Source: Candidatus Binatia bacterium
GTDB lineage: Bacteria; Desulfobacterota; Binatia; HRBIN30
Direction: 5' to 3'
Assembly (NCBI GenBank): GCA_937925685.1
Contig: CALAMI010000011.1
Span: 248,001-312,000, forward strand
DNA length: 64,000 nucleotides
The translations under genes were made by a program, and so were the position numbers. Positions 59,258-63,329 of the stretch are shown here, piece by piece (position 1 is the first letter of the stretch; every line of letters starts with the position of its first letter). The notes under the pieces are model-generated. The model did no database searches. It saw nothing but the letters and a program-made list of their open reading frames with translations, and was not told the DNA's origin.

Positions 59258-59526
59258 TGCGTGGGCAGTAGCTTACCATTGGACTTCCGGAAAGCGAGAG
59301 CTGCTTGGGAACGGTTGGACCTGTCACCCCCGCGCGGTTCGGTCTGTGGCGGGCGCGCGAGCCTCGAATAGAGGGACTGGACTCTACATCCGGGGTCATA
59401 CCGTGGGGCCTGAAGGTTACGGCAATCCAGTCATCACGTTAGTGGGCGTTCGGATGACGATGCGCGACTGTAGATTTCCTCAAGAATAAACGCACCCTCA
59501 GGGGGAAGGCGAACTACGACCCTGAA

Positions 59527-59934
59527 TTAACGGGATCGCGAACTCTTCTCGGTTGGCGGCGGAAGGGTAACGATCACTGACTCGGGGTCTAATGTCCAAA
59601 AGCCCGGGGCCAACACACCGATCCAAGGAACGAGCAGTACAAAGCCACCGACGAGGTCAAGCATGCCCATCGTGGAGACTCGACGGTCGATTGTGGCAGA
59701 AGCCGCACGTTCATCGACTTGTGCCACGACCGTGTGAGAACGCTTTCTCGGCAAGTTGACCACGGCCGTGCCCCGGCCCACGGGCCTTACGTCCACGCTA
59801 ATTTCTGCAGCGGGATCGGAGGCGAGGATGGTAATTGTTTGAGTCGCTGGTTCCATGAAAGAGCAGCCAGCTTGGAGGCAGAACGCTAAGCAACTCATCG
59901 CACCGACAACCCGTTGGACCCGTTTTGTCTTCAC
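59527..59934 (-). CDS. Small lipoprotein
   Basis: 135 residues from GTG 59934, which is preceded by AAAGGGGG; earlier in-frame codons lack a ribosome site. The signal peptide ends in LQAGC (Cys24). A beta-rich domain (ITILASDPAAEISVDVRPVGRGTAVVNLPRKRSH) with a PEGA-like look is followed by a hydrophobic segment (MLDLVGGFVLLVPWIGVLAPGFW), so the protein may be anchored at both ends. C-terminus is Ser/Arg rich. Function unknown. Confidence 0.75.
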   Translation of the reverse strand: MKTKRVQRVVGAMSCLAFCLQAGCSFMEPATQTITILASDPAAEISVDVRPVGRGTAVVNLPRKRSHTVVAQVDERAASATIDRRVSTMGMLDLVGGFVLLVPWIGVLAPGFWTLDPESVIVTLPPPTEKSSRSR

Positions 59935-60348
59935 TTTGCTAACCCCCTTTCTCGAGCAAGGCTCGTCAACTCTATCTGGTGTTCGGCTGATAGTACGGCA
60001 CTGCGGTGTATTCCACACTTTCACTTAGCATTTTCGATACACAAACCGTTGCGCCCACTGAGAGCGAAATACGAAGCCCCCCGCAGTAGGTGGTGCTTCT
60101 TCGGTACTGGTACAGCGCGCCACCAATAGGAGCATAGAAAACAGCCTCTGTCAAAGCCCCTCTTCCGCAGGGAGTGTGCCTTTTCTCGTTCGCTGCTTGC
60201 CGTAGTTCTGTCGTCGTAAAGCTTTGCCTTCTCCTCGTGGGGTCTACGTTCTCTCGGAGGAGAACGGGTCACTTACCTCCTGCCCAAGAAAAGGGGCGGA
60301 GCGCTTGCATTCACGGCCGCAGGTAGGTAGAGGAGCTGGCACGACATA
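59935..60348. other. 414-base non-coding stretch before the riboswitch
   Basis: No coding frame is convincing. The minus-strand end holds the ribosome site of the small lipoprotein gene at 59934. A weak -10-like TACTAT lies about 55 bases upstream of it on the minus strand but lacks a matching -35 box. The part next to the riboswitch (60300-60348) probably contains the peptidase promoter on the plus strand, but I cannot name a confident -35/-10 pair. Confidence 0.4.
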
Positions 60349-60478
60349 GGCCGAGTCCCTGGAGACAGGGAGCGGGGGAACCAAAAAATTTTGGGGTGAA
60401 TCCCGAGGACGGCGGTGGGCCGAATCCGACGGTAGGGTAACTCTTTGAGCCCGAACCCGGCAGCTAACCTCGTAGGCC
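60349..60478 (+). promoter_or_regulatory. c-di-AMP riboswitch (ydaO/yuaA aptamer)
   Basis: The consensus blocks of the ydaO/yuaA class occur in order: GGCCGAG (60349-60355, 5' side of P1), GGGGGAACC, GGGGTGAATCCC, GGGCCGAATCCGAC, GGGTAACTC, GAGCCCGAACCCGGCAGC, and TAACCTCGTAGGCC, whose CTCGTAGGCC (60469-60478) closes P1 with GGCCGAG. The class senses cyclic di-AMP and usually switches genes off at high ligand; cell-wall hydrolases and osmolyte transporters are its typical targets. The downstream gene is an M23 peptidase, as expected. The expression platform is described separately. Confidence 0.95.
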
Positions 60479-60483
60479 TTCAA

Positions 60484-60590
60484 GGAGAGGCGCCGACACC
60501 TGGCAGTGGTCTCCAGGCCTTGTCAGAGCCGGCTGCAAGCCGTTGTGCGGTGGGACGTGGCCTCTCCCGGTATGTCGTGGAAAGGAGAGG
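60484..60590 (+). promoter_or_regulatory. Expression platform with alternative pairings of the Shine-Dalgarno
   Basis: GGAGAGGC (60484-60491) lies six bases after the aptamer. GCCTCTCC (60560-60567) is its exact complement. CCTCTCC (60561-60567) is also the exact complement of GGAGAGG (60584-60590), the ribosome site of the ATG at 60597. So the middle strand can pair either with the upstream strand, leaving the ribosome site free, or with the ribosome site, hiding it. There is no T-run suggesting a terminator. Pairings seen directly; switching is inference. Confidence 0.6.
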
Positions 60591-60596
60591 ACGACC

Positions 60597-61865
60597 ATGG
60601 AACACGCGCGACGGATCGTGTGGCTTACGGCGGTGGCGGCTACTACGTGTCTCGCCGCCGTGAGCCCTGTGCTCGGGGCCAGCAAACGTGGTTCGAGCCG
60701 TGCCGCGGCAAAGCAGACCGTCAGGGTGGAACGCCACGTGGTCGCGGCCGGGGAAACCTTGACGGGCATTTTGGCGCAGCGGGGTCTCCAGGCGAGCGAA
60801 ATATTGCGCTGGCACGAGGCCATGCAAGCAGCGGCGGGCGAGTTTGTGTTGAGCCCTGGTCACGTGTTGCTTCTGGAATTTCAAGGGCAGACGATAATGC
60901 GCACGAGTTATGAGGTGGATGACTGCGTACGGGTAAAGGTAGAGCGCCGAGGGCCTCGTTTGCTTGGAAAAACCGAGCCATTACAAGCGCGGGTTCGCAT
61001 GGTGGCGCGAGAGGGAGTGGTGACAAAATCGTTTTCCGGGGCGGCCCGGCAAGCCGGTATCCCTGACGCCATCGTGTCGAAAATGGCGGACATCCTCGGC
61101 TGGGAGTTTGATTTTCGACGGGTGCGGCCGGGAGACCGTTTCCGCGTACTTTACGAAGAGCGAACGACCGTCGATGGCCGCCCGTTGTCCCCTGGCAAGT
61201 TGTTGGCGGCAGAGATCCGCAGCGGCAAGCGGGCGTATCAAGCTTTCTTTTACGACGACGGGGGCGAAGGTGTGTACGTGGACGGAAACGGTCGCACCCT
61301 TTCCCATGGTTTTTTGCGCTTCCCGGTGGAGTTTACCCGGATTTCGTCGCATTTTGCGCGGCAGCGCTTCCACCCGGTATTGCAAGTAGGACGGCCGCAC
61401 CACGGCGTTGATTTCGCCGCCCCCCAAGGTACTCCAGTGCGTGCAGCTGGTGACGGAGTTGTGGTCTCTGCTGGTTGGGAGGGTGATTACGGCAACCAAG
61501 TCGAGATTCGACACGAGAATGGCTGGTCTACGATGTACGCACACCTGAAGGGATTTGCCCCTGGGATCAAACCGGGCCGGCCTGTCCGCCAGGGTGAAGT
61601 GATTGGTTGGGTGGGACAAACCGGCTTAGCGACTGGGCCACACCTGCACTTTGCTTTGTTTCGCTATGGGCAGTATCAGGACCCCCTTACGGCCAAAGTG
61701 GAACTGCGTCGCGAAGTGAAGGATCCAGTGCGTTTTGCGGAAGCCAAGCGAACTCTCTTGCGGCAGATTTCCGCTCTTGTGCGTCCTACGCCTCCGGTGG
61801 CGGCAACGATGGTGGCCACCCTCCCGAGTACTTTGCGACCGGCGATGGTCTCGCTGCAACCGTAA
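60597..61865 (+). CDS. M23 peptidase (MepM-like) with LysM-type N-terminal region
   Basis: 422 residues from ATG 60597, whose site GGAGAGG ends six bases upstream. After a signal peptide (about residues 1-27) comes a LysM/OapA-like stretch (RHVVAAGETLTGILAQRGLQ), a linker region with an OapA/CsgA-type domain, and the lysostaphin-type catalytic domain: metal ligands His268 and Asp272 in HHGVDFAAP, and His349/His351 in GPHLHF. It cuts peptidoglycan cross-links in the periplasm during growth. Regulation by the preceding c-di-AMP riboswitch is expected. Short Pro/Ala/Thr tail. Confidence 0.94.
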   Translation: MEHARRIVWLTAVAATTCLAAVSPVLGASKRGSSRAAAKQTVRVERHVVAAGETLTGILAQRGLQASEILRWHEAMQAAAGEFVLSPGHVLLLEFQGQTIMRTSYEVDDCVRVKVERRGPRLLGKTEPLQARVRMVAREGVVTKSFSGAARQAGIPDAIVSKMADILGWEFDFRRVRPGDRFRVLYEERTTVDGRPLSPGKLLAAEIRSGKRAYQAFFYDDGGEGVYVDGNGRTLSHGFLRFPVEFTRISSHFARQRFHPVLQVGRPHHGVDFAAPQGTPVRAAGDGVVVSAGWEGDYGNQVEIRHENGWSTMYAHLKGFAPGIKPGRPVRQGEVIGWVGQTGLATGPHLHFALFRYGQYQDPLTAKVELRREVKDPVRFAEAKRTLLRQISALVRPTPPVAATMVATLPSTLRPAMVSLQP

Positions 61866-61889
61866 AGCAATCGGTTTCCGCCCCGGTTT

Positions 61890-63329
61890 TTAAAGAATAT
61901 CCCGAGGCTTATGGCGTAAGGCCTCAGGGTACCTGGCGAGCAGTTGGCGCGCTGCCTCTAGGAACGTGTCCGTTTGCCGCAAGGCGTTGCCCAGCAAGCG
62001 CTCGACCTCGCTGAGCACAGCCTCGATTGTTTGGCTATCAAGGCCCAGCTCCTTGCGTGCTGCCAAGCGGGCAACGAAGTCCCCGCCTGCGGTGCCCTCC
62101 CGAAGCGCCAACGCTGCGCCCTGGGCTTCTTGCTGGATCACGGCATGCGCTTGCTCCCGCCCGACTCCACGGCGCACGGCCTCCATGAGCAACGTGGTGG
62201 TGGCAAGGAAAGGCGCATGGCGCCGCCACTCCGCAGCGACGACGGCAGGGAATAAACGGAAGTTTTTGACGATAGCCAGAAAGGTTTCCAACAAACCGTC
62301 GCCTGCGAGGAAGACTCCAGGCAAGGCTACGCGCCGTACCACGGAACACGAAACGTCGCCTTCGTTCCACTGGTCCCCTGCGAGCTCTTGGAGCATTGCT
62401 GCATAGCCGCGAACAACCACATGCAGACCATTGAGGCGCTCGCAACTTCGCGCATTCATTTTGTGTGGCATCGCTGACGAGCCAACTTGTCCTGCGGCAA
62501 ATCCTTCGGTGGCCAGTTCGAGCCCCGCCATGAGGCGAAGCGTTTTGGCGAAGTTACTCGGCGCGGCACAAAGCTGCACGACGATGCTAGCGAGCGTTGC
62601 ATCTAAGCTGCGGGGGTACACTTGACCTGGTGCCTCGAGGCAACGTTGAAAGCCGAGGAAGCGACGGACTGCTTCCTCGAGCTGCTGGACTTTGTCCGCA
62701 TCCCCGCCGAACAACGTCAGCAGATCGAGTTGCGTCCCCACGGCGCCTTTGATGCCCCGCAAAGGATAGTGGCGGACAAACCCTTGTAAGTGCTCGATTG
62801 CCAGTATGAGTTCTTCCCCGTACATCGCTAGCCTACGGCCAAACGTCGTGGGCTGCGCAGGTACGTTGTGCGTTCTTGCGGGAATTACCGTGTGCCGGTA
62901 TTCCTCGGCTCGCTTCGCAACCCAGCCCACTGCTGCTACCGCCTTTTCGAGCAAGAGTGTCGCTGCCCGGTGAATTTGCAGCTGTTCGACATTTTCGGTG
63001 AGATCGCGGCTGGTGAGCCCCTTGTGGATATGCTCGTAGCCCGCCAGGGCACAGAACTCTTCGATGCGCGCCTTGACGTCGTGTTTCGTGATGCGCTCTC
63101 GGGCGCGGATCCGTTCCAGATCGACATGCCCTTTGGTCCGCTCGTAAGCATCGATGGCCTCTTGGGGCACGTCAACACCAAGTTCTTTCTGCGCTTTGAG
63201 AATGGCAATCCACAGCTCGCGTTCGAGTACGACTTTGCCCTGCGGCGACCAAATGCTTGCCATCTCGGGGCTGGCATAACGTTCGGCCAGCACGTCCGGT
63301 GGTAGAGTTTGCGATGGGGCGGGGGACAT
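61890..63329 (-). CDS. purB: Adenylosuccinate lyase
   Basis: 479 residues from ATG 63329; convergent with the peptidase gene (24-base gap). Fumarase/aspartase superfamily signatures: HDVKARIEEFCALAG, HKGLTSRDLTENVEQL (catalytic His region), ARTHNVPAQPTTFGRRLA, and the family signature GSSAMPHKMNARSCE with the catalytic Ser. It catalyses the two lyase steps of purine synthesis (SAICAR to AICAR, adenylosuccinate to AMP). The N-terminal PPDVLAERYASPEMASIWS and the Lys/Glu-rich next helix fit PurB. Normal length; no other purine gene in view. Confidence 0.96.
   Translation of the reverse strand: MSPAPSQTLPPDVLAERYASPEMASIWSPQGKVVLERELWIAILKAQKELGVDVPQEAIDAYERTKGHVDLERIRARERITKHDVKARIEEFCALAGYEHIHKGLTSRDLTENVEQLQIHRAATLLLEKAVAAVGWVAKRAEEYRHTVIPARTHNVPAQPTTFGRRLAMYGEELILAIEHLQGFVRHYPLRGIKGAVGTQLDLLTLFGGDADKVQQLEEAVRRFLGFQRCLEAPGQVYPRSLDATLASIVVQLCAAPSNFAKTLRLMAGLELATEGFAAGQVGSSAMPHKMNARSCERLNGLHVVVRGYAAMLQELAGDQWNEGDVSCSVVRRVALPGVFLAGDGLLETFLAIVKNFRLFPAVVAAEWRRHAPFLATTTLLMEAVRRGVGREQAHAVIQQEAQGAALALREGTAGGDFVARLAARKELGLDSQTIEAVLSEVERLLGNALRQTDTFLEAARQLLARYPEALRHKPRDIL

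Follow-up and report, generated by a model that had tools for sequence, protein, structure and literature searches.

A conserved c-di-AMP riboswitch that probably acts on translation of a cell-wall peptidase gene by strand exchange

The window (the whole stretch of 64,000 nucleotides analysed here) contains, ahead of a gene for an M23 peptidase, a leader that is probably a conserved c-di-AMP switch acting on translation; we favour, with good though not full confidence, a strand-exchange mechanism by which c-di-AMP would shut off translation of this cell-wall peptidase. Without c-di-AMP, the tail of the aptamer (60484-60491) would capture the anti-Shine-Dalgarno (anti-SD) strand at 60560-60567, and bases 60340-60348 at the beginning of the RNA would pair with the adjoining strand 60571-60579, forming a helix that we call P0, so that the Shine-Dalgarno (SD) sequence would stay open and the gene would be translated. 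With c-di-AMP, the pseudoknot between 60441-60447 and 60481-60487 would close and remove GGAG from the tail, and the anti-SD strand (60561-60567) would then pair with the emerging Shine-Dalgarno at 60584-60590 and block translation. We infer the OFF direction from the characterised members of the family, which respond to c-di-AMP in this way. The support for strand exchange is comparative and computational throughout, and involves the following features:

60305-60333, + strand: putative promoter (TTGCAT 60305-60310, 17 nt, TAGAGG 60328-60333)
60339-60494, + strand: c-di-AMP riboswitch aptamer RF00379 (Rfam, 91.6 bits, cut-off 38)
60340-60348, + strand: P0 5' strand CACGACATA (RNA CACGACAUA), exact complement of 60571-60579, with covariation
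60441-60447, + strand: pseudoknot loop strand CTCTTTG, pairing with CAAGGAG 60481-60487 (one G-U)
60481-60487, + strand: pseudoknot tail strand CAAGGAG, overlapping the switch tail by GGAG, with covariation
60484-60491, + strand: switch tail GGAGAGGC, a copy of the ribosome site and exact complement of 60560-60567
60560-60567, + strand: anti-SD strand GCCTCTCC, kept in relatives
60571-60579, + strand: P0 3' strand TATGTCGTG (RNA UAUGUCGUG), between anti-SD and SD
60584-60590, + strand: Shine-Dalgarno GGAGAGG, exact complement of 60561-60567, 6 nt before the ATG at 60597
60597-61865, + strand: regulated gene, M23 peptidase with Csd3_N2 domain, 422 aa (PF01551, PF19425)

The aptamer match covers the RF00379 model end to end (1-134 of 134), and RF00379 is the single RNA family above its Rfam cut-off in the window; a permissive RNA family search of 60300-60640, up to an E value of 1, returned nothing beyond it. 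By its score and its pseudoknot the leader is a member of RF00379, with predicted binding of c-di-AMP. The source genome (3.70 Mb in 51 contigs) encodes a diadenylate cyclase domain (PF02457, 150.8 bits), and is predicted to synthesise c-di-AMP. It also carries a second RF00379 aptamer with identical arms (L001, G000:C16:30393-30539, 103.1 bits), and the same aptamer as in the window occurs in another genome of the genus (G002), on a contig of 50,231 bases. RF00379 is present in 8 of the 15 genomes of the order, with 12 aptamers in total, and in 52 of the 395 genomes drawn from the phylum; a pattern scan of the genome contigs gave three loci, all of which duplicate loci already in the set. From the putative promoter, the mRNA is expected to start near 60340. 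A TTG lies 32-36 nt upstream of the aptamer match in all 12 loci of the order, which suggests a transcription start near the first base of P0, the 5' strand of which likely forms the first bases of the mRNA. The -10 element (TAGAGG) is poor, and a sigma-70 consensus scan of 59500-62500 gave no promoter-like site, which counts against the putative promoter.

A preliminary description of this DNA had proposed that GCCTCTCC (60560-60567) is exactly complementary to GGAGAGGC (60484-60491) and, through seven of its bases, to GGAGAGG at 60584-60590. Both pairings and their coordinates hold, the second one involving 60561-60567. In the window alone this complementarity is suggestive, with a probability by chance of about 0.5-2%: dinucleotide shuffling of 60492-60583 (20,000 times) yields GCCTCTCC in 103 cases and a sequence complementary to some 8-mer of 60480-60495 in 370, so that the weight of the argument rests on the relatives. 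Throughout the 12 loci of the order, the GGAGAGG behind the aptamer is invariant, a CCTCTC strand is found downstream, within a poorly conserved spacer between tail and anti-SD, and the ribosome site contains GGAG or GGGGAG. All 12 loci of the order keep the strand with its two possible partners, which supports the idea that a copy of the ribosome site in the leader competes for one strand. A search for double changes in the tail:anti-SD and anti-SD:SD pairings across these loci returned none, because the arms are nearly invariant. A local hairpin around the Shine-Dalgarno (GUCGU:ACGAC) is present in the window and by eye absent from L003 and L007, and was dropped.

The preliminary description had set its translational proposal against an intrinsic terminator upstream of the gene, and a search between aptamer and gene (60495-60596) found none in the window. 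Control could be mainly transcriptional, through Rho, which can act on untranslated leaders, or through a terminator that consensus scans miss, with the sealing of the ribosome site secondary, an alternative that we regard as unlikely. Terminators are used by the characterised members in B. subtilis and B. thuringiensis, as far as the available accounts of them go, and three loci of the order (L005, L006, and L018) have an intrinsic terminator between tail and anti-SD. These three loci nonetheless retain anti-SD and Shine-Dalgarno, as do all 12; in L003 and L007, as in the window, no intrinsic terminator occurs between aptamer and gene, and the hairpin that L012 has between tail and anti-SD lacks a U-tract, all of which speaks against a mainly transcriptional switch. 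In L005 and L006 the terminator 3' arm reads UCCUCU and the tail AGAGGA, and in L018 they read CCUCU and AGAGG; by eye the two strands are complementary, and it is possible that in these loci one tail strand controls transcription and translation jointly.

How folding of the aptamer could decide between the arms had seemed obscure in the preliminary description, since the tail lies outside P1. This location is correct, yet the tail belongs to the ligand-binding fold through the pseudoknot, of which its GGAG forms one half, and this is the likely coupling between aptamer and arms. Excluding L022-L024 as duplicates, 77 of 82 aptamer loci of the phylum could be compared (L039, L069, L077, L078, and L083 are too short or have no anchor). 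Their own loop:tail pairs score 7.45, versus 5.16 for swapped pairs, and none of 20,000 permutations of these 77 loci, which contain 36 different tail motifs, reaches the score of the own pairs. A loop:tail helix of at least five pairs can be formed in all 77 loci, which is weak evidence because swapped pairs often reach it too. The covariation implies that the ligand-binding fold includes the tail as one of its strands; since the pseudoknot and the tail:anti-SD pairing share 60484-60487, the two are mutually exclusive. A pseudoknot is also reported for the crystallised ydaO RNA, whose sequence is printed in the available part of the RNA-Puzzles report (PMC5393176); in our reading of that sequence, the loop ACUCCUUCG and the tail CGAAGGAG would be the pseudoknot strands. 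An exchange of P1 strands (AGGCC at about 60474-60478 versus GGCCU at about 60559-60563), seen by eye, was dropped because the conserved pseudoknot explains the coupling.

The second long-range element, P0, was absent from the preliminary description of the leader. Its 5' strand lies immediately 5' of P1, and a helix of at least five pairs can be drawn at its position in all 12 loci of the order (GCGAUG:UGUCGC in L006, where it ranks behind another helix). An unguided RNAalifold prediction on a MAFFT alignment of the 12 loci combined P0, P1, helices of the aptamer, and tail:anti-SD into a single structure. The five core pairs of P0 are formed in 60 of 60 cells of this comparison, with double changes at three of the five: A-U in the window versus G-C in its sister species (L003), U-A versus C-G in L005, and U-A versus A-U in L009. 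None of 500 shuffles matched the pairing of the core, and versions slid along the alignment paired at most 69.4% of cells. In a hand alignment of nine columns, 88 of 103 cells are paired, which three of 20,000 whole-strand permutations equal; judged by duplex energy P0 is weaker (153 of 20,000). It is also weak in single loci, with 7 of 12 beating 95% of shuffles in one test and 4 of 12 in another, in which the best helix of L006, L008, L017, and L018 is not P0; in the window, 205 of 20,000 shuffles contain a sequence complementary to some 9-mer of 60335-60352. When the test was applied across groups (49 loci with a known match start), none of eight loci of family f11 and two of 29 other loci outside the order reached p 0.05, and this rarity suggests that P0 is confined to the order. 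Several f11 loci retain the 5' motif GACATA, for which a search there found no pairing partner. No earlier description of a P0-like helix was found in the accessible portions of the literature searched.

Folding, which might have favoured neither pairing of the anti-SD strand, favours the two in turn as the RNA grows, clearly so in 8 of the 12 loci. In prefixes of the window leader with 3' ends at 60580-60592, P0 has a probability of 0.90-0.91 and tail:anti-SD of 0.87-0.88; anti-SD:SD then rises to 0.34 at 60596, 0.73 at 60600, and 0.98 from 60610 onwards. In a further run P1 was forced and the pseudoknot strands were withheld, which excludes tail:anti-SD by construction; P0 then reached 0.92 at 60580, and anti-SD:SD 0.35 at 60592 and 0.57 at 60596. 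P0 and a folded aptamer can therefore coexist, and P0 by itself does not exclude the ligand. Forcing P0 alone brings tail:anti-SD into the minimum free energy structure of the window. Before the Shine-Dalgarno emerges, the P0 region has at least 4.9 expected pairs in all 12 loci of the order and tail:anti-SD at least six in eight of them (about three in L012 and L018, 0.7 in L008, and 0 in L005). In the complete leader, anti-SD:SD outweighs tail:anti-SD in all 12 loci (with only 2.1 pairs in L012). The minimum free energy of the full leader is -123.0 for the OFF form versus -113.3 to -114.0 for the ON form, or -116.3 versus -111.3 with P1 forced. Withholding the tail changes little at full length, where OFF is favoured with or without it, so that equilibrium folding by itself yields no switch. 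This preference for OFF, computed with programs that represent neither the pseudoknot nor the ligand, is the main weakness of the strand-exchange model: with OFF as the equilibrium of the finished leader, the free state would have to be ON kinetically or through ribosomes that load during transcription. We infer such a kinetic choice, in which P0 would clamp the ON form.

P0 might instead belong to the OFF state, as a pseudoknot that engages the anti-SD:SD hairpin loop and locks the ribosome site. Its 3' strand does sit in that loop, P0 forms in silico with the aptamer folded and the tail withheld, and L001, L008, and L009 have longer linkers to the Shine-Dalgarno. In the window, however, the nine P0 pairs and the Shine-Dalgarno are separated by 4 nt (GAAA), which seems too short by pseudoknot geometry, and RNAalifold groups P0 with tail:anti-SD, though it is unable to predict pseudoknots; we thus hold this role of P0 to be quite improbable. 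Incidental complementarity, whereby GGAG-like ribosome sites pair with any CCTC strand and the leader is unswitched here, is compatible with the chance level of the single window, but it is very hard to credit given the conservation of CCTCTC in all 12 loci within a poorly conserved spacer and the covarying P0 that adjoins the anti-SD.

A more speculative extension, which we advance tentatively and think somewhat less probable than not, would turn the leader of the order into a ring, in which P0 would anchor the beginning of the mRNA next to the anti-SD. The pseudoknot strand would arbitrate among up to three fates (aptamer loop, terminator 3' arm, or anti-SD in L005, L006, and L018), so that a single strand held by the ligand would govern both transcription and translation; in the genus of the window, the terminator would have disappeared while the translational lock persisted.

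Translational riboswitches with anti-SD exchange have one strand that alternates between an anti-anti-SD and the Shine-Dalgarno. The window differs from this general scheme in two respects: its anti-anti-SD forms part of one strand of the aptamer's pseudoknot, and its RNA has a 5' end that pairs next to the anti-SD. The preliminary description had considered a translational version notable because many ydaO switches work by terminators; the window indeed has no terminator, but the available text of PMC9960051 provides a precedent, the c-di-AMP riboswitch of nlpC in C. glutamicum, for which reporters and RT-qPCR point to translation. Its authors state there that translational c-di-AMP control had not been shown before and conjecture, from one sequence, two alternative partners for a CTCC, an upstream GGAG and the ribosome-binding site. 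Judging from the same text, both systems share an RF00379-type aptamer, a wall hydrolase target, the lack of a canonical terminator, and one strand able to pair with an upstream GGAG or the ribosome-binding site; the window has the sequence features of the nlpC type (no terminator, and a strand that complements the Shine-Dalgarno as well as an upstream GGAG), with arms kept in 12 of 12 loci, and not those of the terminator-type ydaO. In contrast with C. glutamicum nlpC as presented there, the strand swap of the window is backed by 12 loci and tied to the aptamer pseudoknot, and the available portion of PMC9960051 contains no mention that we could find of the pseudoknot link or a P0-like helix. 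The nlpC switch belongs to a phylum other than that of the window. The Bacillus ydaO/kimA and B. thuringiensis kdp switches, in the accounts available, have the same aptamer family and the same OFF logic with c-di-AMP, but control K+ transporters through intrinsic terminators, unlike the window with its wall peptidase and no terminator. Besides PMC9960051, we found no translational c-di-AMP switch among the literature matches listed, whose content was partly accessible, and a literature search gave nothing on riboswitches in Binatota.

Translational control as such is therefore not new; what is new is P0, a covarying long-range helix missing from the Rfam model, and the identification of a pseudoknot strand as the probable switch strand. 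The route from aptamer to translation is left open for C. glutamicum in the available text, and the window with its 11 relatives offers a conserved proposal for it, namely that a strand held by the ligand-bound fold, the pseudoknot strand, otherwise frees the ribosome site. If true, c-di-AMP control of translation would extend well beyond Actinobacteria.

The 422-aa product of the regulated gene, whose start codon ATG is at 60597-60599, matches PF01551 at 115.3 bits and PF19425 at 69.5 bits in Pfam. Domains of wall-hydrolase type occur in all 11 order targets scanned with Pfam (of 12, leaving out L007): M23 plus Csd3_N2 in the window, L003, and L018, Csd3_N2 alone in L012, and DPBB_1 in L001, L005, L006, L008, L009, L016, and L017, the aptamer of L001 preceding a DPBB_1 lytic transglycosylase gene. 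Downstream of the peptidase gene and convergent with it lies an adenylosuccinate lyase gene (61890-63329, - strand; PF00206 and PF10397).

Other layouts occur elsewhere in the phylum. In a second translational one, the Shine-Dalgarno pairs with a strand that immediately follows the pseudoknot (at least six pairs, p < 0.05) in 16 of 46 phylum loci tested; of the 61 loci scanned (L025-L085), 47 counted, namely those that have an anchor and, downstream of a ribosome-like site, a frame of 300 aa or more. The loci are L025, L028, L029, L031, L033, L035, L036, L046, L052, L053, L055, L056, L064, L065, L071, and L082, and we take several of their genes, by motifs, to encode Kup-type potassium transporters. 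Six loci of family f11 (L004, L010, L011, L013, L014, and L019), all of the same class, have an ATG directly after the pseudoknot strand, which could itself be the ribosome site. Proteins of the f11 loci carry the in-frame motif ASWYG (RlpA-like), and a terminator-like hairpin lies within the first codons (RAGGAIPR), flagged in L010, L011, L013, and L019 and present with a poorer U-tract in L004 and L014. In L047, L058, L066, L072, and L084, an ATG directly follows an AGGAGG-like pseudoknot strand and the frames look short; these are possible upstream frames with their ribosome site in the pseudoknot. Divergent aptamers with the pseudoknot UGCUUUA:UAAAGCA precede 118-aa frames of a different kind in L079, L080, and L081.
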